A stretch of 64,000 nucleotides of DNA. It comes from Promethearchaeia archaeon (lineage in GTDB: Archaea > Asgardarchaeota > Lokiarchaeia > Sigyniarchaeales > SOKP01). This document shows, piece by piece, positions 22,577 through 53,384 of the stretch. A program made the translations under genes and the position numbers. Each line of letters opens with the position of its first letter. Position 1 is the first letter of the stretch. The stretch is from contig JAHQWG010000001.1 in NCBI GenBank assembly GCA_029856045.1, positions 1-64,000 on the forward strand, in the 5' to 3' direction. The notes beneath the pieces are model-generated. The model worked only from the letters and a program-made list of their open reading frames with translations. It was not told the origin of the DNA and did no database searches.

Positions 22577-23656
22577 ATGAGACGAATAAAAAGTATAGAT
22601 GTATTTCGTGGTTTATGTATTTTTTATATGATAATTGGTCATGCAGTTGTTTGGTGGACAAAGGAATCTCACAAGGAGGCAGTTCTAATATTGAGAAGGA
22701 TAACCGAAATTCTTGGAGCAACAGGATTTCTATTTGTCTCGGGAATTAGTGTGGTTTTAGCATTAAGAACAAAAATGGAAAAGGTAAAAACTGATCTGAA
22801 ATATACCATGCAAGACCTCATTAAGGAACATTATGCACGTTCGTTTTTATTTTTAGTATTGGCTTTAATATATAATGCAATTACTCTTATCTGGTTTTCG
22901 GGGCTATGGGGTATATGGAGTTGGTATATACTTTTTACAATAACAATTTGCTTATTGATTGCATATCCTTTACTAAAGCTACAAAAGATTACTCGCATTT
23001 TTTTAGCGTTTTTTATAATTTTTATTACTTATCCTTTATTTGGAGGGCTTGAAAGCTTAATAGCAAGAGTTCCTGAAAGCGGTTGGACAATTTTATACTA
23101 TATATTATTTAATCCTGTTCAAGAGTACCCAATCTTACCTTATCTTGCTTTTTTTTCTATAGGAACCGTTGTTGGTGAGATTTTCTATGAGATTTATTCA
23201 ATTAAACAAGATGATATAAAAGATATCTCAGTTAAAAAGAAAATTATTAGAAATTTTATAATCTATGGAGCGTTATTAATCACAACTGCAGTATTATGCT
23301 CGATTTTTATATTTGATGATCTAATTTCATTTATCATCAGAACTTCATTTACATGGATGCTCTATGGAATTGGTTTGGACTTAATTCTTATTGGATTTTT
23401 AACATATTTACATGAATTTATACTGACACCAGAATGGAGATATCGTTTTTTATTTTATTTTTCCTACTATTCGCTAACATTATATCTCGGACATAATGTA
23501 ATAGCTTTAATTTTTTGGGAACAATTAGATATAATAACGTGTATTACAATAGCGATTCTAGTAGCAATAGGATTCTGGTATCTTTCAAGATTATTATATA
23601 TCAAGACCGGTCCAAAATATTCAGTAAAATACATTATATCGAAAAGAGTTTCTTAA
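22577..23656 (+). CDS. DUF1624/heparan-acetyltransferase-like membrane protein, paralogue 1
   Basis: 359 aa with about ten membrane helices. It begins RRIKSIDVFRGLCIFYMIIGH, the conserved start of the DUF1624 and YeiB/HGSNAT-like families of membrane acyltransferases. A second conserved block is ATGFLFVSGIS, followed by the cytoplasmic loop RTKMEKVK. A C-terminal histidine occurs in TLYLGHNVIALIFW. A paralogue of matching length and order lies at 52275-53384. Transfer of acyl groups to surface glycans or lipids is the family-level guess. Confidence 0.7.
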   Translation: MRRIKSIDVFRGLCIFYMIIGHAVVWWTKESHKEAVLILRRITEILGATGFLFVSGISVVLALRTKMEKVKTDLKYTMQDLIKEHYARSFLFLVLALIYNAITLIWFSGLWGIWSWYILFTITICLLIAYPLLKLQKITRIFLAFFIIFITYPLFGGLESLIARVPESGWTILYYILFNPVQEYPILPYLAFFSIGTVVGEIFYEIYSIKQDDIKDISVKKKIIRNFIIYGALLITTAVLCSIFIFDDLISFIIRTSFTWMLYGIGLDLILIGFLTYLHEFILTPEWRYRFLFYFSYYSLTLYLGHNVIALIFWEQLDIITCITIAILVAIGFWYLSRLLYIKTGPKYSVKYIISKRVS

Positions 23657-26250: not shown

Positions 26251-27558
26251 ATGAATGATCTTAGAAGTAAATTGAAAATTTCTGAGGAGGCATTAAAAGC
26301 TCTAAATGATTTTCTTCTAGATAAGGATAATCTTGTTATTAACGACCTTTTTAAAATTATAGACAAGTATGGTGGGGTTGAAGAGATTAACAAAAAGGCG
26401 GAGGAAACGGGAAAGTTAGAAAATTTAATTCAAAAGTTAGAAAAGAAAAATCCATCATATGTAAAAGATCTCGATTGGTTAATTGAGCAGCGTGATAAAC
26501 AAGCTTTTATTAGTATTCCCGAGTATAGACGGAAGATTCTTGGTGATAAAGCTGAAAAGATGGACTTTGATAATACTTTTGCTGTTACTTTAGAGTTATC
26601 TGCATGTCAGTATTTTCCATTTTTAATTGATATTGCAAAACGAGCTATTGAACATAATTTATTAATGCCTCGCCGGATAATTCGTGTTAGAAAAATGAAA
26701 GAGCAGGAGGAAGATGGAGACCTTTTGGCTATGGCTGCTGCTATGCAAATTATTGGTGCGTCATATGTAGAGACACTTGATACTAAGGGTACAGCTCCAG
26801 GTCCTGATGGATTTCCTGTAAATGTTCATCTTGGTGGCCCTGAAACCATTACCGGTTATTTCGGAGGCGTTGGTCAACCAAATGACTTTGCCTTGAAATG
26901 GGTTGATGAGTATCTCTACTATTATACAAATTATGGAATCAAACAAGTTCTCAACGTAAATCCTGGTACAGTGCTTCTTGGTTATTTTCTTTACAAACTG
27001 GGAATTAATAATGAATTCAAAATTTCAGTCTATATGGGGAACGACAATCCTTATGCTTGTCTTTGGACCTTGATGACAGCAAAGTTATTTGCTCGAGAAG
27101 ATGGTACAAGTCCGTTGATCGGTTTCAATCTTGCAAACTCTGTTAATAACCAAACAATTGAAATGGCGGCATATATTAGGAAACCTTTTGGGTTTGAAGA
27201 TATTGTTCGTTTAGAGCATCACATAGTTGAGACATGGAAAAGCATTGTGAGACAACCATATGATCGTCGAGATGAATTAATTGAACTTGCCAAAAAAGTA
27301 AAGAATGTGAGCGCCAAGCATGAGGGGGGTAATGTCGATGTTGAACAGAAACGAGAGCATCCTTCGGACATTCTTGAATATTTCATGAGCAAAGAGGAGA
27401 TTATGGAAGCAAATTTGTGGGAATCTATGCGAATTAACCATCTTGACCGTAATGATGCAGTAAATGCAACTGCCAGGGCTCTTACTGAGAATGGACTTAC
27501 ATTTCTTGCTGCAAAGAATCTTCATCAACTTAAAAAAATTAGAGGGAAAAATAGATGA
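26251..27558 (+). CDS. unrecognised 435-aa protein coupled to DapA-Fae
   Basis: I do not recognise the family. The first ~85 residues are helical and charged. The central part (residues ~100-330) is globular, alternating strands and helices, with motifs such as LHLGGPET, GYFGGVGQPND and VNPGTVLLGYFLYKLG that could line an active site, and MGNDNPYACLW. The C-terminus has LTFLAAKNLHQLKK. No signal or membrane segment. Its stop overlaps the DapA-Fae start by 4 bases (ATGA), indicating co-translation and probably a shared pathway. A clear GGAG-type site precedes ATG 26251. Enzyme activity is likely but unassigned. Confidence 0.7.
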   Translation: MNDLRSKLKISEEALKALNDFLLDKDNLVINDLFKIIDKYGGVEEINKKAEETGKLENLIQKLEKKNPSYVKDLDWLIEQRDKQAFISIPEYRRKILGDKAEKMDFDNTFAVTLELSACQYFPFLIDIAKRAIEHNLLMPRRIIRVRKMKEQEEDGDLLAMAAAMQIIGASYVETLDTKGTAPGPDGFPVNVHLGGPETITGYFGGVGQPNDFALKWVDEYLYYYTNYGIKQVLNVNPGTVLLGYFLYKLGINNEFKISVYMGNDNPYACLWTLMTAKLFAREDGTSPLIGFNLANSVNNQTIEMAAYIRKPFGFEDIVRLEHHIVETWKSIVRQPYDRRDELIELAKKVKNVSAKHEGGNVDVEQKREHPSDILEYFMSKEEIMEANLWESMRINHLDRNDAVNATARALTENGLTFLAAKNLHQLKKIRGKNR

Positions 27559-29057
27559 GTAAAAATAAGGGAAAATTTGATTTCCGTCCTTCTGGGGTAA
27601 TTCCTGCGCTAGTTACACCATTCAATAAGGAGGATGAATCGATTAATGAAGAGAATTTACGCAATCTAGTAGATCATCTGATTGAACAAGGAGTAACAGG
27701 TCTCGTTCCATGTGGCACAACCGGTGAATTCGTGAATATGACGTTTGAAGAGCGACTGAAAGTAATCGAGATTGTTGTGGATGAGGCGAATGGGAGAGTC
27801 CCAGTTATTGCAGGAACAGGAGAATCGGGAACTAAACTCGTCATCGATGCTACTAGGGCAGCTACTGATATTGGTGCAGATGCAGCTATCATAGTTACAC
27901 CTTATTATCTTAAGCCTAAAGCAAAGGGTTTATATGATCATTATTTCACGATAACTGAAAAGACAGATATTCCTCTTGTGTTGTATAATATTCCTCCTTG
28001 CACAGGGGTTAATTTACCTTGGACAGTGGTAGAGGATCTTGCCGATATTGACAATATTGTAGCTATTAAAGATTCAAGTGGTGATTACAAATATTTTTCC
28101 GCATTATTGGAAAAAGTAAGTGATCGAATCTCAGTCATTATTGGATGGGATGAGAATGTCTTGGCAGCGCTGGCTGGTGGAGCTGCAGGGATGATTCTTG
28201 CCTCAGCTAATGTAATTCCAAAGATTTGGCTCGAACTTTATAATCATGTGAAAAACAACCGTCTTGAGGAAGCTCAGGTTCTTCAGAAAAAGATTCAAAA
28301 ATTTACTCGAATGATAGTAAGTTCTGGTGCATTAGGACCTAAAGAGTGTTTGAATATGATGAATATTCCTGTTGGTGTTACTCGACAGCCGGTAATAATG
28401 GGTGATACACTTTCCTATGAGCTTTGGGATGAATTTAGAATAGAATTGGAGAAGTTAGGTTTGCTCAAAAAGAAGGAAATTAAAATTGAAGTTGCCGAGA
28501 AAGAACTTACGAGTCGTTTTTATTCTATTGATATTACTCCTCAAATAATTTCAGACTTTAGTTTAAGGGTTGGTGAATCACTCGTAGGAAATAGAGCCGA
28601 ACTTGCTCATGTAGACCTTCTTATTGGTGATAAGAAAGGTCCTGTTGGTGAAGCATATGCTCGTTCCCTAACACATCCTGCGAAAGGACGGGAAGGTCTT
28701 CAAGTGATTCTTGAACCTAACATGCAAGTCAAACCGGCAACAGTAATGATTCCTACAGTTAAGGTCCAGTCGCTACGTCAAGCAAGTCTCGTTTATGGAC
28801 CTGCACAAGCAGCCGTAGGGAAAGCGGTAATGAAATGTGTGGAAGATGGTATTCTTCCTAAAGATGCTTCAGAAGATTTAGTGATTATTGCAAATGTTTT
28901 TGTGCATCCTAGTGCAAGTAGTCGCAAAAGAATTTTTATTAACAACTATAAAGCAACCCGAAACGCTATTCGAAAGGCGATGGAAGGTTTACCAACAGCA
29001 GATGATGGTATAAAGAATGCAGAGAGTGCTCGACACCCATTTAGAAATGATCCATAA
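27555..29057 (+). CDS. fusion of a DapA-family aldolase and formaldehyde-activating enzyme (Fae)
   Basis: 500 aa in two complete domains. Residues ~10-305 are a DapA/NAL-type class I aldolase: CGTTGEF phosphate/carboxylate loop, VTPYY (Y118) and Schiff-base lysine K172 in VAIKDSSGD. The Arg that true dihydrodipicolinate synthase uses for aspartate semialdehyde (PSRTG) is replaced: here the loop is YNIPPCTG. So the substrate probably differs. Residues ~335-500 are Fae: [19 protein letters not shown] with the catalytic-type histidine H352, and [12 protein letters not shown]. Fae condenses formaldehyde with tetrahydromethanopterin. The fusion suggests formaldehyde made by retro-aldol cleavage is passed to Fae (inference). 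Confidence 0.88.
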
Positions 29058-29139: not shown

Positions 29140-32100
29140 TTAATTTATTATTTTTTTTCTTTTCTTCCGAATTCTTATTACAACAATAGATATAACGACT
29201 CCACTAGTAATTCCTCCAGCAATCAGTACGATAAATAGCATCGGAAAATCTCCTTCTCCGTGTGAACTAGCACCTACATATGCCTGAAAACAAGGATCAT
29301 TATATACCTCGTAACCATCCCATTTTGAAAATCCAACACTCATAAAATAAAGTTCTGCATCGAAATTGAAAGATGTACATGATTGTTCACTGTCGCTCAT
29401 AAAAGCACCTGAAAAGGTACTTATAGGTGTCGTAAAAACTGCCACTTTTAGATTTTTTGATGTATTAAAACTCCACGTATAGGGTGATCCTAATTCTGCT
29501 TTAGCAAAAGTATTTTCAGTATCGTTTAATACCATAGAAAATGATTCTGACATTGTCTGATTATCATTATTTATTGTTTGATTATTGTCATCAATTATTT
29601 GCGTTTCTTCGCCATTATCGTATTTATCTTCATAATACATACTAGCTTTTCCACTAAACACATAATAAGTTAAACTAAGTGAGTAGTTCTCAAGATTATT
29701 CATGCCCCCGGGACAATGAGGAGTCCAATCTCCAACCCATTGGTCAATTTTAAACTCTGTGTTATAATATAAGCCATTAACAGTATCATTTCCTTTGAAA
29801 TGTACCATAAAATCTAATTTATCAATCGTAACTTCTACTGGTTTATCTGCAAATCCCTTGAAATCTGATCCATCGACAACACCGTCATACCAATCCCACA
29901 TTGACCTAAAATTCTGATTATTGAAGGGATAAGTTGTCCCATTAATAGTAGAGAATTTTACTCCCCAATCAATATTAGCAGCACCTATGAAAGTATAAAC
30001 ATCAACTGATTTAGTTATGGGTTCATCGTATATCCAATATTCTCTTGTTTCTTGATAATGATCGGTAGCATTGGAAATATCAGGTGTAATGAATGAAACG
30101 TTATCCACATTTGATGGGACAAAGAAATGTGTTATTTCAGAATCCAATCCAATATCCATGAATCCATCATTATCACCATCTTTATAGAGCATCATACCAG
30201 CGTATTCATATCGGTTTGTAACATAAGCTGATTTAATTTCTTGCTTACTGCTATCCGCATAGAAATCCGCCCAGTAATTTTGGTCTAGGTTAAATTCTAT
30301 CCATGTCCATTCATGACTATTATCATTTACCCAATCCCAGTTGTATTTCTCCGCTTCAGCAATAACATCTTCCCAAGTACGGTTCTTTACCATACGGTCA
30401 AGTTCCCAATAACCTGGACGTCCAAAGCCGTTCTCATCAAGAACCGTGTTAATTATTCCATCCATTTCAGCGGAAGTCAACGTCGAGTATGTACCATCTG
30501 CTTTAAGCCAAGTATACTCTTCTGACCATTCATAGGTCCAATTCATATTATTGATACCCATTGAAGAATGTATTTGCATTTCATTACCAAAAACAGATGT
30601 TATTGGATTATATTCGATTTCTAACTCTAAAACATTTCTTGTATGTGAAAATGTATCTTTAGATTCATATGTTCGATATATATAATACTGATCATCTGTA
30701 GTGGACAAATCTCCATCAAGATCAAGGGCACCTTCATCTGTAGTTGTAAACATTCTATATCCCCACATGTTATTTGTTGGAGTCCCAAAAATTAAATTAT
30801 AAGTATCCTTAATTTGTAAGATATCTTGTCTTTGTAAAAACAAACCATATTGATGACCCCAAATTGTTTGATATAACTGTATAAAGCTGTTCTCCATTTG
30901 AACAAGATAATTTTCTGAATCAATCGTAATATTGTATATATTTTTCCAGCTATAAGCTTCCTTTGTCGTCCAATCATAATTAGGGTTCTTGATCACTTTC
31001 CAAGTTCCAGGTACGATTTCAGCTTCAAGAATTGCCATATAATTATTACGCATGAAATTTTCTATGCCCCCCCATTCGTTATAAAATGTAAAATTATTGT
31101 AGAAATAAGTATCGCTTCTAAATGTAAAATTTATTGTGTTTTGACCATCAACTGACCAAAAATCTGGCTCGCTCCAGTTAATTGGGTGGGAGTAATACAT
31201 TCCACTCGTTTCATTATAAAGATTCAAATAATATTCTGTGTTTTGAGGTATATATTCTAAAATAGCTTGATATTCATCAACCAATTCGATAAAAGCATTA
31301 TCCGGGATCTCTAGAAAACTACCATTTAATAAAAGTAGGATTTTCTTTGAATGGTTCCAATATTCCCAACAATTAATTGACAGGATATCCTTCATCCAGA
31401 TTTCGTCATATCCAGTAACATGATTATAAGTTTTTACTGTTAAATTGAAAATTGGAATATAATAGCTTACAACGACATTGATTTGAGTACCGTTTATCAG
31501 TGTTAAGAAAAAGCTTCCGTTTTCAGCATAAAAGTTATCAATTCCAAAATGTTCTAAATCATATTTCTGAGTTACAAGTATTTGCTCTGATAAAACTTCT
31601 ATAGCACCTTCCTTTTTGAATGAGTTATAAGAATGAACACCATAAGGTATAGATTCACCGATAACAGTAAGGTTAAAATTCGGTGTTCCATTAATCATTG
31701 TAACCAAACCTTTATGAATTTCTAAATCTTTAATGATTTCGCTACCTATAACGATATCTCCATTAATTGGTTCTTGATTGCTAAATGTTAAATTCTCCAT
31801 CAAGTATAACTCACCATTAATATTTACAAAATATAAAACAGGAATGACACCATAATGCACCCAATCTCCTTCAGATAAACCGCTAACTGTCGCTTCCATT
31901 TCATAGCGTTCATTTACATTAGCGTTTGGATAAGGTAAAATATACTCTTGATTATCTTTAATCGTATAATAATATGGTCTGATAATATTATCCCAGTTAT
32001 GATGATATCCATTGTATCTGAGAGGTATTAAAATCTCTGATTCATTATAATTTACTCTATATGCTTCCATATAATCCGAGAGATAATGCTCTACTCCATC

Positions 32101-35100
32101 AATAATAACCTTGTTGTTGGTTCCATATTGTTCATTCCAATCACTTGTAACCACAGTATATTTGGTGCCGTCAGTAGCAATTATATACTGTTCTCCATTA
32201 AACCATTGAATCCCTTGTGAAGATATTTCCAATCGAGTAATTCCATCTAAAACAACAAAATATACGCGGTTCTCCCAAGCTCGAGCTTCTTCTGAAAGAG
32301 TTAATTGATCAACATTTTCAATTGTTCTAAGATGGGTGTTTTCAGCAAGCCAATAATTATTAGGATCTCCATAACTATGTATAATATCTCCTCCAGTTTC
32401 ATTCCATTCGGTATATTCCGATATATAATGAAGAGTTCCTTCAATATCAACAAAATAATAAACCGAATCATACACTGCATCATCCCAGTATTGACTTGGT
32501 TTATTCATAAATGTTTGGAATGTGTCAATCGTACTACTATCATTTAAGGTCACTGTATAAATATTAACTTTCTCCCCTTCATAAAATATAATCCTCTCAT
32601 CGGTTGTGGCATCTTTATAATAGAAAAATTCCTGGTTAGTTTGCCAATCCCAATCGTAGTACATTATTAACTCATGAATTTTATTATCCCCATCGGTATA
32701 CTGACTGACATCTAAGGGTCTGGTTTCACCATCAATTTCCACATATGGCATTTCATACATTATATATGAAGAACCATTGATTACTACAAAATTTCCCAAC
32801 TTTGGATCCTCAATATAATTTTTTTCTCCACCATTTTCATAGTAAAAGATATCTTTATTGATCCACTGGAGTGATTTGTACTCACCCCAAGGCTTATCAT
32901 AATCATATCCCCATGCTTCTTTAAGAAATTCAACATCCCAATTATAAGAAGCTTCTGGTGCTCCTTCTAGGATGGTGATATTTAAATCTATAAATGTCCC
33001 CTGAGATGATGTATAATTTGATACATCATTAATTACTAGAAACTCTATTTCTGAAGAAATTTCAGTTTCTTTACCTCTCCAAGGAAGCCAACCTTTTACC
33101 CATTCGCCTTCTTCTTGATTGAATTGATATTCCTGCCAATGCCAATCTGTCACTTCACACCATTCCCAAGAATCATAAGTTCCATTAACCCATATATCGA
33201 TCCCAAGAGTTTCATCATATTCCCAATGCCATCCTTCCTTCTCTACTTTAACCCAGTCTTGGTAAGTGGAATTCTCCCAAACTTGTTTATTAGTACGATT
33301 ATAAGCTTCAAATGTAGTTTCCTTTGACTTAAGATTATAGGTGACATAAATTTCTATCTCTGACCACATATCTATTTCAGTAGTCCATTTTGATTCCCAA
33401 CAATTAAGTCGAAAGCCCAATCCATCAATCGAATTGAAAAAATCACTTGAACCTTCTAATTTATTGCGAATTACGAATGGTTCACCTGGTTTCATGTTAT
33501 AGAATGGTTTATCCCATTTAACATTGGAATTATCTACAATCCATGTATTAACTTGAGGCTGATTGACCCCAATCTGACCACTTGTCATATCGCTATTCCA
33601 ATGTTCGTTTCCATCAACATCAATTAATCCAGTGTCATACCAAATTTGAGTTTCTGATGCTAACAGAATATCCGTGAAATATCCTGTAAATTCAACAATA
33701 GTACGTTGTTCTGTATCTAAATATTTATTAGTACTATATAATTTGAAGAAATTTTCAATTTTATTGCTTATATTCAAATTATTTAAATTAAACACTCTTG
33801 CCCCTCCCATATATGGATCATTTGGATTTTCAGCCCAATATTCAAAACCGACTTTTAAGGAAAACTCATCGGTATTTTCATTGTAAATCAAAAAGAATTG
33901 ATTACTCACCCATTCTTGCCATAAATTTTCAACCCAAACAGGACTTCCACTACTCCAATCCCATCCAGATCTATTTATCATCTGAGAACTTTGCTGCCAA
34001 CAATCTATCCATGTTTTTACTTCATAAAATCCATAAACTTGTTGAGTTGTTGTGAGATTTACGGTAGAATCATAGAGATATGTTCCAGAACTTTCATTGT
34101 AAACCCATCCTCCCATATGAGTCACTTTCTCTTCATGCCATCCTTCAACAATGGAAGTGTTTGTATATCCATTAGGAATGTTAAGTTTTACAAAAATAAA
34201 TCCTGGTGAAATGCTCTTAGATATATTAAAACGAAAAGTCAATAGTTCTTCGATACCTACAGTGTTTGTTTCCTTACCAGCTGAGTCTATCGTTTTTACT
34301 CCCCATTTGCCACCAAAACCCCACCAAGGATCAAATTCTGTAGGCTCTCCAACACCAATCCATTTTTCGGGGCTATCATTTGATTCAAAATCCCATGAAG
34401 AAAAGCCCCACATGTTAATTCTTTCACCTCTATTTGAATATACGCCCATTTCCACCCTATAAGTTCCTAAATAGACCCGTTCGTTGAATTTTCCGTTCCA
34501 TTTAACTTCCCAAGTTTTAGTGAAGTTATTATAAATAGCTTCACATTGATTCCAATTAATGGTATAAAAACTTTCAGGTTCTTCCCATTTCTGAGCAGAA
34601 TTTGGTTCTTCGGCTGACATTTTTAATCTTATTGGCAAAGATTCATATTCATTAGTTTCACTACTAGAAAGTGTACCCTCAAAACCCTCACCCATAGTAT
34701 TATTCTGTTGCCATGAATGAACTTCCCATTGCCAACCTTCCTCATATACAATTTCTTCTGAAGAGCTATAATACCAATCCCAAATTATGCTTGGATGGAC
34801 AACATAAAACATTAGGTTTAAATCTGCCGTAAGAAGTGCATCTCCAAAAAAATTCGGATTATTATTTGTTTCATCATTATATTTATCCATATGCCAGTGA
34901 ATTTCAACAGCTCCTAGACTCCTATTGAATTTACCTTTAAAAATTGCTTCAGGTATAAATCCACGTACTATAAATTCTTCATTAATATTTACGTACTCAG
35001 CGTTTTGATTGATTTCTGTTCCATTTAAATGTTCTATTCGAAATTGTGCTTTGGGTCCAAATTCCCAAGATGAGTCGTCCCAAGTCCAATTATTAGTATA

Positions 35101-35238
35101 TGTTTCATCTATAATATCCCAATTCAACTTAGACTCCGTAATTCCAGGACTTTGAGCAAGAGAAAAACTAGGTAGAAAGTAACTTATTAAAAGCACTGTG
35201 CAAAAAATACTTCCCTTTGTGTATTTATTTAATTTCAT
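29140..35238 (-). CDS. giant tryptophan-rich cell-surface protein, 2032 aa
   Basis: Signal peptide at the N-terminus (GSIFCTVLLISYFLPSFSLAQ). The ectodomain of ~1970 residues is beta-rich, unusually high in Trp, Tyr and Asn, and carries many N-x-S/T glycosylation sites. Segments with a Trp followed by a short turn and further aromatic residues recur (for example GWHWEYDE, GWQWEVHSW, DWHWQEYQF), suggesting diverged repeats. One membrane helix near the end (MLFIVLIAGGITSGVVISIV) is followed by the basic tail RIRKKRKKIIN. It is therefore an anchored extracellular protein, perhaps an S-layer or adhesin-like component. No catalytic motif found. It lies between dapA-fae and a fae remnant. Confidence 0.8.
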   Translation of the reverse strand: MKLNKYTKGSIFCTVLLISYFLPSFSLAQSPGITESKLNWDIIDETYTNNWTWDDSSWEFGPKAQFRIEHLNGTEINQNAEYVNINEEFIVRGFIPEAIFKGKFNRSLGAVEIHWHMDKYNDETNNNPNFFGDALLTADLNLMFYVVHPSIIWDWYYSSSEEIVYEEGWQWEVHSWQQNNTMGEGFEGTLSSSETNEYESLPIRLKMSAEEPNSAQKWEEPESFYTINWNQCEAIYNNFTKTWEVKWNGKFNERVYLGTYRVEMGVYSNRGERINMWGFSSWDFESNDSPEKWIGVGEPTEFDPWWGFGGKWGVKTIDSAGKETNTVGIEELLTFRFNISKSISPGFIFVKLNIPNGYTNTSIVEGWHEEKVTHMGGWVYNESSGTYLYDSTVNLTTTQQVYGFYEVKTWIDCWQQSSQMINRSGWDWSSGSPVWVENLWQEWVSNQFFLIYNENTDEFSLKVGFEYWAENPNDPYMGGARVFNLNNLNISNKIENFFKLYSTNKYLDTEQRTIVEFTGYFTDILLASETQIWYDTGLIDVDGNEHWNSDMTSGQIGVNQPQVNTWIVDNSNVKWDKPFYNMKPGEPFVIRNKLEGSSDFFNSIDGLGFRLNCWESKWTTEIDMWSEIEIYVTYNLKSKETTFEAYNRTNKQVWENSTYQDWVKVEKEGWHWEYDETLGIDIWVNGTYDSWEWCEVTDWHWQEYQFNQEEGEWVKGWLPWRGKETEISSEIEFLVINDVSNYTSSQGTFIDLNITILEGAPEASYNWDVEFLKEAWGYDYDKPWGEYKSLQWINKDIFYYENGGEKNYIEDPKLGNFVVINGSSYIMYEMPYVEIDGETRPLDVSQYTDGDNKIHELIMYYDWDWQTNQEFFYYKDATTDERIIFYEGEKVNIYTVTLNDSSTIDTFQTFMNKPSQYWDDAVYDSVYYFVDIEGTLHYISEYTEWNETGGDIIHSYGDPNNYWLAENTHLRTIENVDQLTLSEEARAWENRVYFVVLDGITRLEISSQGIQWFNGEQYIIATDGTKYTVVTSDWNEQYGTNNKVIIDGVEHYLSDYMEAYRVNYNESEILIPLRYNGYHHNWDNIIRPYYYTIKDNQEYILPYPNANVNERYEMEATVSGLSEGDWVHYGVIPVLYFVNINGELYLMENLTFSNQEPINGDIVIGSEIIKDLEIHKGLVTMINGTPNFNLTVIGESIPYGVHSYNSFKKEGAIEVLSEQILVTQKYDLEHFGIDNFYAENGSFFLTLINGTQINVVVSYYIPIFNLTVKTYNHVTGYDEIWMKDILSINCWEYWNHSKKILLLLNGSFLEIPDNAFIELVDEYQAILEYIPQNTEYYLNLYNETSGMYYSHPINWSEPDFWSVDGQNTINFTFRSDTYFYNNFTFYNEWGGIENFMRNNYMAILEAEIVPGTWKVIKNPNYDWTTKEAYSWKNIYNITIDSENYLVQMENSFIQLYQTIWGHQYGLFLQRQDILQIKDTYNLIFGTPTNNMWGYRMFTTTDEGALDLDGDLSTTDDQYYIYRTYESKDTFSHTRNVLELEIEYNPITSVFGNEMQIHSSMGINNMNWTYEWSEEYTWLKADGTYSTLTSAEMDGIINTVLDENGFGRPGYWELDRMVKNRTWEDVIAEAEKYNWDWVNDNSHEWTWIEFNLDQNYWADFYADSSKQEIKSAYVTNRYEYAGMMLYKDGDNDGFMDIGLDSEITHFFVPSNVDNVSFITPDISNATDHYQETREYWIYDEPITKSVDVYTFIGAANIDWGVKFSTINGTTYPFNNQNFRSMWDWYDGVVDGSDFKGFADKPVEVTIDKLDFMVHFKGNDTVNGLYYNTEFKIDQWVGDWTPHCPGGMNNLENYSLSLTYYVFSGKASMYYEDKYDNGEETQIIDDNNQTINNDNQTMSESFSMVLNDTENTFAKAELGSPYTWSFNTSKNLKVAVFTTPISTFSGAFMSDSEQSCTSFNFDAELYFMSVGFSKWDGYEVYNDPCFQAYVGASSHGEGDFPMLFIVLIAGGITSGVVISIVVIRIRKKRKKIIN

Positions 35239-35601: not shown

Positions 35602-37038
35602 TTATTCTTTTAATATTGGATTTCGGGCTGCTAGGACTGCGTCAAGACGTTTTACTGGAGTGTTGAGAGGAGCATTTTTAAGAAGCTCGGGATTTGTTTT
35701 TGCCTCATTATATATATTATTCATCACATCAATGAAATTATCCAATGAAGCTTTTGACTCAGTTTCGGTCGGTTCAATCATCATAGCACCTTTTACTATT
35801 AATGGAAAATAAATTGTTGGGGCGTATAATCCATAATCAAGAATACGTTTTGCAATATCTTCAGTAGTTACATTATTTTCTATTCCCCGGTCTGAAAGTA
35901 CAAATTCATGTTGACAGATTCGATCGTATGGAAGGTGGTATTTTTCTTTTAAAAAAACTCGCAAATAATTTGCGTTTAGAACAGAAATTTGACCCACGCG
36001 TTTTAGACCTTCGGCACCTAAGGCGAGAATATATGCATAAGCTCGTATAATAACTCCAAAATTACCCCAAAAGCACTTAATACGACCAATAGAATTGTTG
36101 GTTTTTTCTCGACATACAAATCCCTGTTCTGTGGCGATAATGGAGGGGTCAGGGAGATATGAAATGAGTTCTTTAGTAACTCCCACAGGTCCAGAACCGG
36201 GTCCGCCCCCACCATGTGGGGTTGAAAAAGTTTTATGTAAATTCAGATGGACGATATCAAATCCCATATCCTTCGGACGGCAGATACCTAACATGGGATT
36301 CAAATTAGCGCCATCATAGTAGCATAAACCTCCATATTTATGTATGATATTCGTGATATCCTTAATTTGACGGTCAAATATACCCAAAGTATTGGGATTA
36401 GTTAACATTATACCCGCTACATCGCCCTGCTGCATTGCAAATTCAATATGATCAAGTGGAACTTCTCCCATATCATTTGAGCGTACTTCGATTATTGAAA
36501 AACCTGCCATTTTTGCAGATGATGGGTTAGTTCCATGGGCGGAATCTGGTACCAAAATTTTATTTTTTTTAAGATTTTTATTCTCGAAATATTTTTTCAT
36601 TATTAAAATTCCGGTTAATTCTCCATGAGCTCCCGCAGCAGGTTGAAAGGTAAATCCATCCATACCGGTAATTTCTCTGAGCATCTCTGAGAGATGGTGC
36701 ATTAGTTCAAGAGCTCCTTGATTTTCTTCTTGAAGAGGATGTATTTGGGAAAAAGCTGGAAGTCGAGCGATCACCTCATTAATCTTTGGATTATATTTCA
36801 TAGTGCACGAACCAAGCGGATAAATTCCTGAATCTATCCCATAATTTCTCCTACTCAACTCGGTATAATGGCGGACAATTTCTACCTCTGGAATATCGGG
36901 TAAGGGTAAATCTTCTCGTTGAAAAAATGAGGGTATTATTTCGAGTAAATCAACTTTATCTATATCCATTTCAGGAATGAAATTATGTTGAGAGCGTTTA
37001 GTACCTTTGTTAAAAATCAAAGTCAGGTTTGAAGTCAT
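35602..37038 (-). CDS. gcvPB: glycine dehydrogenase (decarboxylating) subunit 2
   Basis: 478 aa, the C-terminal half of the split P protein. It carries the PLP lysine in LNLHKTFSTPHGGGGPGSG. PLGSCTMKYNPKINE near the start and HGTNPSSAKMAGF are characteristic. Together with subunit 1 it decarboxylates glycine and passes the aminomethyl group to lipoyl-GcvH. It starts 3 bases after the gcvPA stop, so the two are co-translated. It is the last gene of the operon. Confidence 0.96.
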   Translation of the reverse strand: MTSNLTLIFNKGTKRSQHNFIPEMDIDKVDLLEIIPSFFQREDLPLPDIPEVEIVRHYTELSRRNYGIDSGIYPLGSCTMKYNPKINEVIARLPAFSQIHPLQEENQGALELMHHLSEMLREITGMDGFTFQPAAGAHGELTGILIMKKYFENKNLKKNKILVPDSAHGTNPSSAKMAGFSIIEVRSNDMGEVPLDHIEFAMQQGDVAGIMLTNPNTLGIFDRQIKDITNIIHKYGGLCYYDGANLNPMLGICRPKDMGFDIVHLNLHKTFSTPHGGGGPGSGPVGVTKELISYLPDPSIIATEQGFVCREKTNNSIGRIKCFWGNFGVIIRAYAYILALGAEGLKRVGQISVLNANYLRVFLKEKYHLPYDRICQHEFVLSDRGIENNVTTEDIAKRILDYGLYAPTIYFPLIVKGAMMIEPTETESKASLDNFIDVMNNIYNEAKTNPELLKNAPLNTPVKRLDAVLAARNPILKE

Positions 37039-37041
37039 TGT

Positions 37042-38382
37042 TTAATTCCCTCCTATGTTTTTGTTAGAAGCTTTTTCAGCTGCATGAATGAATTTTTCTA
37101 TATCCTCCCGAGAATTGCTCTCAGTCACACATACAAGTATAATATCTTTCATATCAGGAAAATACTTCGATATCATTAGAGGTGGAAGCAGATTTTCCTG
37201 TTTGCATTGTTCAATTAGTTCATGAACATTTGGACATTTAACTAAAAATTCATTATATGTTGGTTTCTTATTTAATATTTGATAGCCTGGAATGGTTGCT
37301 AATTTTTGCTTAACATAATGAGATTTTTGAAAATTTTGAAGAGCAATCTCTTGAAGACCTGTTTTTCCTAATGAAACGAGATAAATTAACGAGGCTAAAG
37401 CACACAGTGCTTGGTTCGTACAAATATTTGAAGTGGCTTTCTCACGACGTATATGTTGTTCGCGGGTTTGTAAAGTTAATATGAATCCCTCCCGTTCTCC
37501 ATTGATTTCATTAGTTTTACCAATCAACCGACCCGGCATTTTACGCAAATATTTTTGCTTAGATGCAAAAATTCCTAACCCTGGACCACCAAATGATGGT
37601 GAAATACCAAAAGATTGTCCTTCAGCAACAAAAATATCAATATCGGATTTTCCTGGAGGTTTTAACACGCCTAGGCAAGTAGGATCGGTCATTACTTGAA
37701 TAATTAAACATTTGGGAGCTTTATCTCTAATTTTTTGAACTAATTCTGTGATATTTTCGATGCCACCAAAAAAATTTGGACTCTGGAATAGAACAGCTGC
37801 AACACTTTCATCTAATTTTGAGATGAGTGCATCCTCCATAACAACTTCAAAATGGATGTCTTGCCCCCAGCAATAGGTCTTAACAACTTCTACATATTCC
37901 GGATGAATTCCTTCAAGTAAAATAATTTTTTTTTTCTTTGCTGCTACAGTTGCCATAATTGCAGCTTCAGCTAGAGCAGTGGAGCCGTCATACATACTCG
38001 CATTAGCAACATCCATCTGGGTAAGCCGTGTAATTGCTGTTTGATACTCATAAATGGCTTGTAAATACCCTTGACTGGCTTCTGCTTGGTAGGGGGTATA
38101 GGCAGTATAAAATCCCGAAAGGTTGATTACGAAGTCCACCAATGAAGGAATATAATGGTAATAGCAACCGGCTCCTAGAAAAGAACTTGAATAAATTTTA
38201 TTTTTACGTGAAAGTTCTTCTAATCGCCGTAAAAGATCTGGTTCAGACAAACCATGAGGTAGGTTTAATTTTTTTAATAATAAATCGGCTGGAATATCTT
38301 GAAATAACTCCTCTAAGGAATTAATACCGATGGAAGTTAACATCTCGGTAATTGTTTCTTTATCATGAAGTATAAAATCCAT
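37042..38382 (-). CDS. gcvPA: glycine dehydrogenase (decarboxylating) subunit 1
   Basis: 446 aa, the N-terminal half of the P protein. FLGAGCYYHYIPSLVDF, YTPYQAEASQGYLQAIYEY and NASMYDGSTALAEA are the conserved blocks. There is no Schiff-base lysine, as expected of this subunit. The C-terminal domain ends with helix EKFIHAAEKAS. The operon order is gcvT, gcvH, gcvPA, gcvPB. Confidence 0.96.
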   Translation of the reverse strand: MDFILHDKETITEMLTSIGINSLEELFQDIPADLLLKKLNLPHGLSEPDLLRRLEELSRKNKIYSSSFLGAGCYYHYIPSLVDFVINLSGFYTAYTPYQAEASQGYLQAIYEYQTAITRLTQMDVANASMYDGSTALAEAAIMATVAAKKKKIILLEGIHPEYVEVVKTYCWGQDIHFEVVMEDALISKLDESVAAVLFQSPNFFGGIENITELVQKIRDKAPKCLIIQVMTDPTCLGVLKPPGKSDIDIFVAEGQSFGISPSFGGPGLGIFASKQKYLRKMPGRLIGKTNEINGEREGFILTLQTREQHIRREKATSNICTNQALCALASLIYLVSLGKTGLQEIALQNFQKSHYVKQKLATIPGYQILNKKPTYNEFLVKCPNVHELIEQCKQENLLPPLMISKYFPDMKDIILVCVTESNSREDIEKFIHAAEKASNKNIGGN

Positions 38383-38442
38383 TCTATCGATCTCATTTAG
38401 ATGGTAATAGTTGGATTAATCTAATAAATAAAAAAAATACTA

Positions 38443-38838
38443 TTAATCTTCCTCTTTTTCGATCATTTCTTGATATATTTCAACCGAGAGAAGATTTTTT
38501 ATTTCATCTGGGTTTGATATTTTAATTTTCATTATCCAGCCCTCCCCGTACGGTGAAGAATTCACAAATGCTGGATTATCGGCGATGTTTTCATTTATCT
38601 CAATAACTTCTCCCGTTAATGGGAAAAATAATTCACTTACCGCTTTAACGGACTCAATTTCACCAGCAACACTGCCTTTTTCTAACACTACTCCTATTGC
38701 AGGAAGTTCAACATATACAATATCTCCAAGTTTATGTTGTGCGTAGTCAGAAATTCCAACAGTTGCCATATCTCCATCCATTCTAACCCACTCGTGAGTT
38801 GGTGCATATTTTAAATCTGCAGGAAATTTAAGATCCAT
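38443..38838 (-). CDS. gcvH: glycine cleavage system H protein
   Basis: 131 aa. The lipoylation site is the lysine in IESVKAVSELFFP. YAPTHEWVRMDGDMATVGISD at the start and SPYGEGWIMKIK near the end match canonical GcvH. It carries the aminomethyl intermediate from P protein to T protein. There is a second, divergent GcvH at 44697-45128. No lipoate ligase or lipoyl synthase is in the window. Confidence 0.96.
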   Translation of the reverse strand: MDLKFPADLKYAPTHEWVRMDGDMATVGISDYAQHKLGDIVYVELPAIGVVLEKGSVAGEIESVKAVSELFFPLTGEVIEINENIADNPAFVNSSPYGEGWIMKIKISNPDEIKNLLSVEIYQEMIEKEED

Positions 38839-38876
38839 CCTTATTCACATTAATCTTGATTTTTATTCAAATTTTA

Positions 38877-39983
38877 TTATATATTACGATAAAATGGTGT
38901 GGGAACTACTTTTGCTTTAAGAAGTTTATTCCGAATTTCAACGTCAAATTCCGTCCCGATGGAGCTATATTGTATTTCAACGAGAGCTAAGCCAATTGTC
39001 TTTTTAAGCGTTGGTGAGAATCCCCCAGAAGTTACATATCCGATTTCTACCCCATTCTTAAATAATTTATAGTTTTCTCTAATGATTCCCCTATCCAAGA
39101 GATTTAATCCAACAAGAATTCGTGATGTCCCCTCTTTTTTTTGGCGAATAAGAACTTCCTTACCTATAAAATCAATTCCTTCTTTTGGTTTTACAAGCCA
39201 GTTAAGCCCCGCTTCAATCGGGGTTATTGAATTAGTAAGTTCATGACCATACAAGCAGTAACAAGCTTCTAAACGCAAAGAATCACGCGCCCCTAAACCT
39301 GCAGCACCAGCTCCTGTTTTTATAAAAGCATTCCAAATTGTTTCAGCGTATTTATTTTCAAAAGAAATTTCAAAACCTCTTTCACCAGTGTAACCAGTTC
39401 GGGCTATGAATGCAGGAATATCACATAAATTACAAAAAACAAAATAAAACCGATTCAAAGTGGATAAATCTGTATCAACGAGTGGCGCAATTAAGTCATC
39501 AGATTTCGGCCCTTGAAATGCTAATCGACATCTTTCTTTCGAGACATCCTTAACTTTTACTCGAAAGTTTCCTATATGCTTATTAATCCATTGAAAATCT
39601 TTCTCTACATTACTTGCGTTGACAATCATCCGAAATCGTTCCGGACTCTCCTCATAGTAAACTAAATCGTCTACTACAGTCCCATTTTCATAACACATGC
39701 AAGAATATTGTCCTTTTGACTTTTCTAATAATTTTAAATCATTCACCATCAAATATTGAAGGAATGGTATCACATCTGGACCTTCAAAAATAAATTCTCC
39801 CATATGAGAAATATCAAAAACACCTGCGAGCGTTCGAACGGTTTCATGTTCTTTTAAAATGCTTTCATATTGGACGGGCATCAACCATCCAGCAAAATTC
39901 ACCATTCGCGCCCCTAATTTTACATGAGTTTCATATAAGGGGGTTTTTATTTCATTTAGGTCTTCTTTAGTAATAAATTCCAC
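38877..39983 (-). CDS. gcvT: aminomethyltransferase (glycine cleavage T protein)
   Basis: 368 aa. [17 protein letters not shown]-like start (here [15 protein letters not shown]), [26 protein letters not shown] and [13 protein letters not shown] are the T-protein signature blocks. It transfers the one-carbon unit from aminomethyl-lipoyl GcvH to a tetrahydropterin, releasing ammonia. In this organism the acceptor may be tetrahydromethanopterin or folate; MptE and Fae in the window favour a methanopterin-type carrier (inference). First gene of the operon. Confidence 0.95.
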
Positions 39984-44696: not shown

Positions 44697-45128
44697 TTAT
44701 TTAACGGATGCAACATAATCTGCGGCTGATATTAAATTTCCTTTCTCTGCATCAAGATTTGACGCTTCAACCTTAAATAACCAAGCTGCTCCATACGGAT
44801 CTTCATTTACCTTTTCAGGTTCATCCATTAAGTCAGGATTTACTTCAACTACCTTACCTGATACTGGAGAAAATATATCTCCAACACCCTTCTGACTTTC
44901 AACTGTACAATCCACAGGATCACCGGATCCATCAACATCTTGAGAAACATCTGCTCCGTCTATACCTTCTACGTCAACAAAAGTAATTTCTCCTAATTGG
45001 TCAGCAGCAAAGGCAGTTATTCCAACAGTTACAATATTTCCTTCAATTTTCAACCATTGATGGGCTTTAGAGTATAATAAATTATCTGGAAAATCTAATT
45101 CTTTATCATTAATTGTGGCTTTTACCAT
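44697..45128 (-). CDS. second, divergent GcvH-like lipoyl-carrier protein
   Basis: 143 aa. The lipoyl lysine is in TVESQKGVGDIFSP. LLYSKAHQWLKIEGNIVTVGIT and DPYGAAWLFKVE match GcvH. Compared with the 131-aa operon copy it has an acidic insert of about 11 residues (SQDVDGSGDPV) before the lipoyl hairpin. It is not beside other glycine cleavage genes. Possible roles are a second carrier for the same enzymes or a scaffold for lipoate assembly, as known for some GcvH-like proteins; neither is shown here. Confidence 0.88.
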   Translation of the reverse strand: MVKATINDKELDFPDNLLYSKAHQWLKIEGNIVTVGITAFAADQLGEITFVDVEGIDGADVSQDVDGSGDPVDCTVESQKGVGDIFSPVSGKVVEVNPDLMDEPEKVNEDPYGAAWLFKVEASNLDAEKGNLISAADYVASVK

Positions 45129-52274: not shown

Positions 52275-53384
52275 ATGCGCCGTATAAAATCTATTGATGC
52301 TTTCAGAGGTTTGTGCATGTTATATATGATTTTTATGCACTTTTTTGAATGGTGGATAATACCTGCAGATATTTGGGTGCACACAGCTGGCAGAATGATG
52401 ATAGAGTTTATAGGAGCATCTGCTTTTCTCTTTATTTCTGGAATAAGTACTACATTATCGATAAGGTTAAGAAAGGAAAAAGTAAATTCTGATCCAAACT
52501 ATTCAAATTCAGTATTAATAAAAGAGTATTATTATCGTGATTTATTATTTTTATCTATAGGTTTAATCTATAATGCGTTTACAGTTGTTGGAATTTGGGG
52601 ATTGAGGGGACTATGGAGTTGGTATATCCTATTAACAATTCCTGTTTGTCTTGCCATTGGTTACCCTCTAATAAAGTTACCTAAAATCGTCCGTATAGTT
52701 TTAACATTTTTTATAATTTTTATTACTTATCCACTGTTTGCTGTACTAGAAAGTTTAAGGTATACTGATGGAGTTTCGGAGATATTATATCATTTATTGT
52801 TTAATCCATATTGGGAAGACCCAATTTTACCAATGTTTGCTTATTTCTGTTTTGGTACAGTAATAGGTGAGATTTTCTATGAAATTTATTCAATTAAAGA
52901 TGAAAATTTAAAAAATACACTTGTAAAAAAGAGAATTATAAGAAATTTTTTAATTTATGGGATAATCATAATCTTGATTTCAATAGTAGGTGCAATATTT
53001 GTATTTAACGACCCGATTTCAGTATTAATTAGAGGTTCATTTTCATGGATAATATATGCACTTGGTTGGAATTTGATTATAATGGGGATTTTGACATATT
53101 TACATGAATTTAAATTTTCATCTGAATGGAAACATCGTTTTTTGTATTATTTCTCATTTTATTCATTAACAATTTATTTAATACATAATATCGTTGCTTT
53201 ATTTTTTTGGCATTTTTTTAATAAGTATAGTGTCTGGATACCACTCATTCTTATTATAATTCTATTATGGTTTATGTTAAAAACGATATATAAGAAAATT
53301 GGACCAAAATTTTCATTAAAATATGCAATTTCAAAGGTAGCTGTTTATTTATCAAAAAAAAAAAGAGTTAAACTTATGGTCTGA
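52275..53384 (+). CDS. DUF1624/heparan-acetyltransferase-like membrane protein, paralogue 2
   Basis: 369 aa with about ten membrane helices; start RRIKSIDAFRGLCMLYMIF, GASAFLFISGIST, and LFWHFFNKYS near the end. Each motif aligns with the protein at 22577-23656, including the segments IFYEIYSIK and FIIFITYPLF that are identical or nearly so. The two are clear paralogues 30 kb apart. It ends in a basic tail (KKKRVKLMV). The substrate is unknown; family members modify lipids or glycans with acyl groups. Confidence 0.7.
   Translation: MRRIKSIDAFRGLCMLYMIFMHFFEWWIIPADIWVHTAGRMMIEFIGASAFLFISGISTTLSIRLRKEKVNSDPNYSNSVLIKEYYYRDLLFLSIGLIYNAFTVVGIWGLRGLWSWYILLTIPVCLAIGYPLIKLPKIVRIVLTFFIIFITYPLFAVLESLRYTDGVSEILYHLLFNPYWEDPILPMFAYFCFGTVIGEIFYEIYSIKDENLKNTLVKKRIIRNFLIYGIIIILISIVGAIFVFNDPISVLIRGSFSWIIYALGWNLIIMGILTYLHEFKFSSEWKHRFLYYFSFYSLTIYLIHNIVALFFWHFFNKYSVWIPLILIIILLWFMLKTIYKKIGPKFSLKYAISKVAVYLSKKKRVKLMV

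Follow-up and report, generated by a model that had tools for sequence, protein, structure and literature searches.

A recurrent DapA-Fae gene fusion in Asgard archaea and Bathyarchaeota as a candidate formaldehyde-pyruvate aldolase

The tethering of Fae to a formaldehyde aldolase is already known as a principle from Fae-Hps, in which the fusion of Fae to Hps has been proposed to recover released formaldehyde directly (PMC5241800). The enzymatic conversion of pyruvate and formaldehyde to 4-hydroxy-2-oxobutanoate (HOB), and from there to homoserine by aminotransferases, has also been described (PMC8879981, PMC7918591). Here, we report a gene that joins Fae to an aldolase of the dihydrodipicolinate synthase (DHDPS/DapA) type, and relate its distribution, conservation and gene neighbours to a possible role in C1 metabolism. 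The first-pass annotation of this DNA knew of no described DapA fusion, and we found none in open-access papers; no single paper among these dealt with both Fae and dihydrodipicolinate synthase (subscription papers and preprints were outside the scope). We found no description of this type of aldolase or domain order in a Fae fusion, nor of the partner genes or the split tandem form.

The window, that is the whole stretch of DNA analysed, comprises positions 1 to 64,000 of contig JAHQWG010000001.1 (GCA_029856045.1) from a Promethearchaeia archaeon (Lokiarchaeia; Sigyniarchaeales; SOKP01). The fusion is encoded on the plus strand at 27555-29057 as a single open reading frame of 500 aa without interruption, delimited by the ORF list, Pfam and the recurring architecture. 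Its DHDPS/DapA-type class I aldolase domain (aa 12-281, 27588-28397), placed by Pfam, alignment and AlphaFold/Foldseek, is followed by a linker predicted to be disordered (aa 308-335, 28476-28559, AlphaFold pLDDT < 50) and a complete Fae domain (aa 339-496, 28569-29042), placed by Pfam and by alignment to M. extorquens Fae. An AlphaFold model built with 20 homologues has a mean pLDDT of 82, with both domains confident. It had been noted earlier that the two domains are full length and that K172, Y118 and H352 are intact, and both points hold: the Pfam DHDPS match spans aa 12-281, the Fae match covers profile positions 1-158 of 159, and the three residues lie in AIKDSSGD, TPYY and the Fae half, respectively. 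A search for the same architecture elsewhere, which the first-pass annotation had advised, recovered full-length fusions from several phyla, in tens of assemblies besides this one. This recurrence, at 42-97% identity, rules out a sequencing or assembly artefact joining two genes and supports the prediction of a real two-domain enzyme.

The surroundings of the fusion hold other features. A glycine cleavage operon, gcvPB-gcvPA-gcvH-gcvT, lies at 35602-39983 on the minus strand, with a second gcvH-like gene at 44697-45128. G097 is a relative with a fusion of 97% identity, and there gcvPB directly adjoins the fusion tail to tail. A Trp-rich protein of 2032 aa with a signal-like N-terminus and a C-terminal membrane helix is encoded at 29140-35238 (minus strand) and is missing at the same place in G097. 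Membrane proteins that are paralogues of each other, 359 and 369 aa long (MRRIKSIDxFRGLC...), are encoded 29 kb apart on the plus strand, at 22577-23656 and 52275-53384.

The aldolase half matches Pfam DHDPS (PF00701) with E=1e-74 and contains, beside K172 and Y118, also Y144 (YNIPPCTG) and T55/T56. Its model resembles M. jannaschii DapA (2yxg; Foldseek target-normalised TM 0.95, rmsd 1.8), and the TIM barrel, the Schiff-base lysine and the YNxP tyrosine of the DHDPS/DapA superfamily are all found. Of 123 fusion copies, 121 retain the Schiff-base lysine and all retain Y144. At position 149, where DHDPS has its arginine, the protein has Cys, and not one of the 123 copies has arginine there, the position being taken by C, V, L, T, A, M or F. 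The arginine of the DHDPS (G/S)RTG motif holds the carboxylate of the second substrate, aspartate semialdehyde; its loss would be expected if the aldehyde were formaldehyde, which carries no carboxylate. Four unfused relatives in Bathyarchaeota-type genomes (41-45% identity to the aldolase half) have kept the residue in NPGRTG, NPDRTG and NPPRSG motifs, so that arginine loss accompanies fusion. The genome of the window also encodes a second DHDPS with a normal GRT motif, beside a dapB gene named from its sequence rather than by family search. Given this separate canonical dapA, the fusion is very unlikely to be the DHDPS of the lysine pathway, in agreement with the earlier remark that the replaced arginine (PPCTG) makes lysine synthesis unlikely.

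The Fae half is equally well recognized, with 192 bits against Pfam PF08714 (E=6.5e-57, cut-off 27) and 194.5 bits against NCBIfam TIGR03126 (cut-off 118). It aligns without gaps over 161 residues to the M. extorquens Fae structure 1Y5Y, with H352 as the catalytic His, and H352 and D354 correspond to the H and D of that enzyme. H352 is present in all 35 complete single fusions, and H352 together with D354 in every B copy of the tandem form described below. Among the residues which we presume to contact tetrahydromethanopterin (H4MPT), H, D and Q are retained and one Lys is changed to Thr; this Lys, which M. extorquens Fae shares with the separate Fae-Hps of the window's genome, is Thr in most fusions (position 401). 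Mch, an enzyme of the H4MPT pathway, was found in the window's genome and in three other Asgards, three Bathyarchaeota and two Chloroflexota. It was not found in three of five Chloroflexota, two of two Thermoplasmatota and the one planctomycete; these genomes, which may be incomplete, all carry tandem copies. H4MPT is therefore perhaps not the cofactor everywhere.

Among 228 Asgard genomes, the full fusion occurs in most members of a few Lokiarchaeia genera, in smaller Asgard families and in nearly every member of one large family, identified by named records as Thorarchaeia. A scan of named genomes revealed it in Heimdall-, Njord-, Baldr- and Borrarchaeota, in many Bathyarchaeota (up to 64% identity), in Thermoplasmatota including Methanomassiliicoccales, in Chloroflexota (Anaerolineae and relatives) and in one Brocadiia planctomycete. 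Of 300 genomes sampled evenly across the phylum to which one Bathyarchaeal carrier belongs, 12 harboured the full fusion. The aldolase-domain tree places the window copy and its Loki relatives next to the Bathyarchaeal single fusions with 100/98 support, a grouping which suggests that the gene may have been transferred between the two phyla. Fragments of the Fae half alone are found in single-contig Loki genomes (G122:C1:697593-698048 and G121:C1:362621-362968) and may reflect a frameshift or decay of the gene.

The fusion exists in two forms. A single gene is found in Loki, Heimdall, Njord, Borr and most Bathy genomes, and two tandem genes, A then B, in Thor, Baldr, Thermoplasmatota, Chloroflexota and one Bathyarchaeote. 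In the aldolase tree the B copies form one group, the sister of which is the single fusions, and the A copies fall outside both; the exception is the single copy of L147, which is probably half of a pair. Both A and B retain the aldolase machinery and differ beside the lost arginine (CTL vs VTG). Their Fae halves have degenerated in a complementary manner: of the 46 Fae positions that single fusions conserve, A has lost 19 and B 10, with only one lost in both (hypergeometric P=0.024), and retention in A and B is negatively correlated (rank correlation -0.51, P=3e-4), both statistics treating positions as independent, which they are not. B copies keep E341, A351, H352, D354, F449, H451, N464 and H494, A copies keep E380, N389, G415, P416 and Q418, and the pattern is common to Thor and non-Thor pairs. 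The Fae active site presumably lies at a subunit interface. The complementary loss points to composite active sites, and A and B would then form a mixed oligomer with Fae sites shared between subunits. The tandem pair of Thorarchaeia is directly preceded by two conserved genes, of about 860 and 815 aa (L072:1570-6592 and equivalents), neither of which belongs to a Pfam or NCBIfam family.

Directly upstream of the fusion in the window, at 26251-27558 on the plus strand, lies a gene for a protein of 435 aa, here termed UP435, which was delimited by the ORF list, family searches and linkage. Its stop overlaps the ATG of the fusion by 4 bp (ATGA). No family in Pfam or NCBIfam matched it; its model (pLDDT 85) is a predicted beta/alpha TIM barrel with an N-terminal helical domain, and Foldseek matches to the PDB are weak (query TM below 0.4). 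UP435 is better conserved than the fusion itself, with 62-95% identity to the window copy across distant Asgards. The two genes are adjacent in all 48 Loki/Heimdall-type genomes in which both are complete, a count that omits three genomes with fragments only. In the Bathyarchaeal sample of 300 genomes, 10 had both genes, 2 and 1 had one of them alone and 287 had neither (P=5e-16), and the two are as a rule neighbours. UP435 is thus the genomic partner of the fusion. Where it is missing from that place, the neighbouring position is occupied by the gene of a seemingly unrelated protein of 315 aa, d7, with a mean identity of 73% within its family. Neither UP435 nor d7 could be firmly identified through Pfam, NCBIfam, Foldseek or a sequence search of the PDB, and homology between the two is not claimed, the hhalign match being weak (probability 15%, P=0.0017). 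HOB is the same compound as 2-keto-3-deoxytetronate. A role of UP435 as threonate/erythronate dehydratase would be chemically attractive but was not retained; the tetronate papers found describe other routes.

The distribution of UP435 outside fusion-bearing genomes indicates which chemistry may be involved. In Asgards that have UP435 and lack the fusion, it lies beside an aspartate-type aminotransferase, a homoserine dehydrogenase (scoring above the cut-off of NCBIfam PRK06270) and an aldehyde:ferredoxin oxidoreductase (AOR), as seen at six loci from two genome families. In a third fusion-free family UP435 adjoins a divergent stand-alone DHDPS-type aldolase with the KDSSG motif and without the arginine at one locus (L097), and the aminotransferase alone at another (L219). 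These neighbours are a putative HOB/homoserine-handling set. HOB is the simplest compound that would join aminotransferase, homoserine dehydrogenase, DHDPS-type aldolase and Fae, since its transamination yields homoserine and its cleavage by a pyruvate aldolase yields pyruvate and formaldehyde. The homoserine link is drawn from fusion-free lineages, and no aminotransferase is located beside the fusion itself. AOR adjoins the fusion at four Bathyarchaeal loci and in one Chloroflexote. Thorarchaeia have UP435 at a distance from the fusion; in several of their genomes a threonine synthase is close to it.

We consider it about an even chance (probability roughly 0.5) that the fusion is a bifunctional HOB aldolase which, like Fae-Hps, passes formaldehyde to or from H4MPT, while UP435 or d7 supplies or uses HOB or homoserine. 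In the class I aldolase half, pyruvate would be bound to K172 as a Schiff base, and HOB would be split reversibly to give pyruvate and formaldehyde. The tethered Fae would couple the formaldehyde to tetrahydromethanopterin, giving methylene-H4MPT, or deliver formaldehyde in reverse, and UP435 or d7 would probably produce or use HOB or homoserine. We infer HOB as substrate, the direction, the formaldehyde handover and the role of UP435; the handover fits the precedent of Fae-Hps. The first-pass annotation had put forward the cleavage of a hydroxy-2-oxo acid, HOB for example, with formaldehyde channelled to Fae, or the reverse; the operon of the UP435 homologue with aminotransferase, homoserine dehydrogenase and AOR lends the choice of HOB indirect support. 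That annotation had not noted the overlapping partner gene, the spread over several phyla or the tandem A/B form.

Another substrate, such as a 3-methyl- or 3-hydroxy-substituted 4-hydroxy-2-oxo acid that would be cleaved to a 2-oxo acid and formaldehyde, is unlikely. The broad substrate range of the DHDPS superfamily and the CTL/VTG difference between A and B would allow for it, but class I aldolases of the DHDPS type normally take pyruvate as nucleophile and the homoserine-type neighbours favour an unbranched C4 acid.

With HOB as the substrate, the direction could be anabolic, pyruvate and methylene-H4MPT being converted to HOB and this by transamination to homoserine, in substitution for homoserine dehydrogenase in threonine or methionine synthesis. 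Homoserine dehydrogenase was not found in the window's genome, which is 100% complete, and most Thorarchaeia, several of them with threonine synthase near UP435, are also without it. In the Loki family, at >=90% completeness, the dehydrogenase is present in 12 of 13 genomes without the fusion and in 9 of 29 with it (Fisher P=5e-4, from related and hence not independent genomes). However, some genomes carry both the fusion and the dehydrogenase, and in most Lokis devoid of the latter, threonine synthase over the family cut-off vanishes along with it. Among the GHMP homoserine kinase matches listed above the cut-off, none came from a fusion-bearing genome, and the combined absence of synthase and kinase suits auxotrophy better. 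The anabolic direction is for these reasons given a low probability, and a catabolic HOB aldolase, with HOB or homoserine as the source of carbon and C1 units, is likelier. Homoserine dehydrogenase matches in three genomes of one Asgard family fall in open frames of 835-868 aa, which suggest aspartokinase-homoserine dehydrogenase fusions.

It is improbable that the aldolase half is instead a formaldehyde-independent KDG-like aldolase or dehydratase, with Fae as a mere scavenger or sensor. Recurring AOR neighbours are what glyceraldehyde or glycolaldehyde routes would lead one to expect, and some Fae copies have lost catalytic residues, but no single fusion or B copy shows a change in these residues, and the complementary A/B loss implies that Fae function is under selection. 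A true dihydrodipicolinate synthase for lysine with an incidental Fae is rejected as very improbable, despite 231.7 bits against NCBIfam TIGR00674 (206-bit equivalog cut-off), given an arginine that all copies lack and unfused kin possess, and the genome's own dapA-dapB. That score would nevertheless lead automatic pipelines to name the gene dapA, and caution is needed with current models.

More widely, we tentatively propose, at less than even odds, a natural module dedicated to formaldehyde-pyruvate aldol chemistry (UP435 or d7 with DapA-Fae) in Asgard archaea, Bathyarchaeota, Thermoplasmatota and Chloroflexota, which would connect C1 units on H4MPT with a C4 oxo acid, the tandem Fae halves acting as a hetero-oligomer with sites shared by A and B. 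If so, it would be a second natural coupling of an aldolase to H4MPT-bound C1 units besides Fae-Hps, in the archaea nearest to eukaryotes as well as in abundant lineages of sediments, for which genomes are the sole source of inference on C1 and amino-acid metabolism. Two uncharacterised partner families, UP435 and d7, gain a testable role. Synthetic C1 pathways, now dependent on promiscuous enzymes, would gain a class I formaldehyde-pyruvate aldolase, and the key step of the synthetic homoserine cycle would occur in nature.

Compared with known systems, the fusion is closest in principle to Fae-Hps (NF009833), which also tethers Fae to a formaldehyde-releasing or -consuming aldolase in an archaeal H4MPT context. 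The Hps partner is a ribulose-5-phosphate-based TIM barrel, whereas a class I (lysine) aldolase of the DHDPS type takes its place in the fusion, with Fae N-terminal in Fae-Hps and C-terminal here; the fusion matches only positions 2-161 of 392 in the NF009833 profile and has no C-terminal Hps. DapA (PF00701, TIGR00674) shares the fold and the Schiff-base machinery of the aldolase half, which differs in lacking the substrate arginine and in its appended Fae. An aldolase described as class II would catalyse the same reaction of pyruvate and formaldehyde promiscuously (PMC8879981, PMC7918591), but with unrelated catalytic machinery and without Fae. Stand-alone Fae of M. extorquens (1Y5Y/1Y60) aligns over its full length without gaps and shares the catalytic His and Asp, while in the fusion Fae is tethered, has Thr for Lys at position 401 and, in the tandem form, has its conserved residues divided between A and B.
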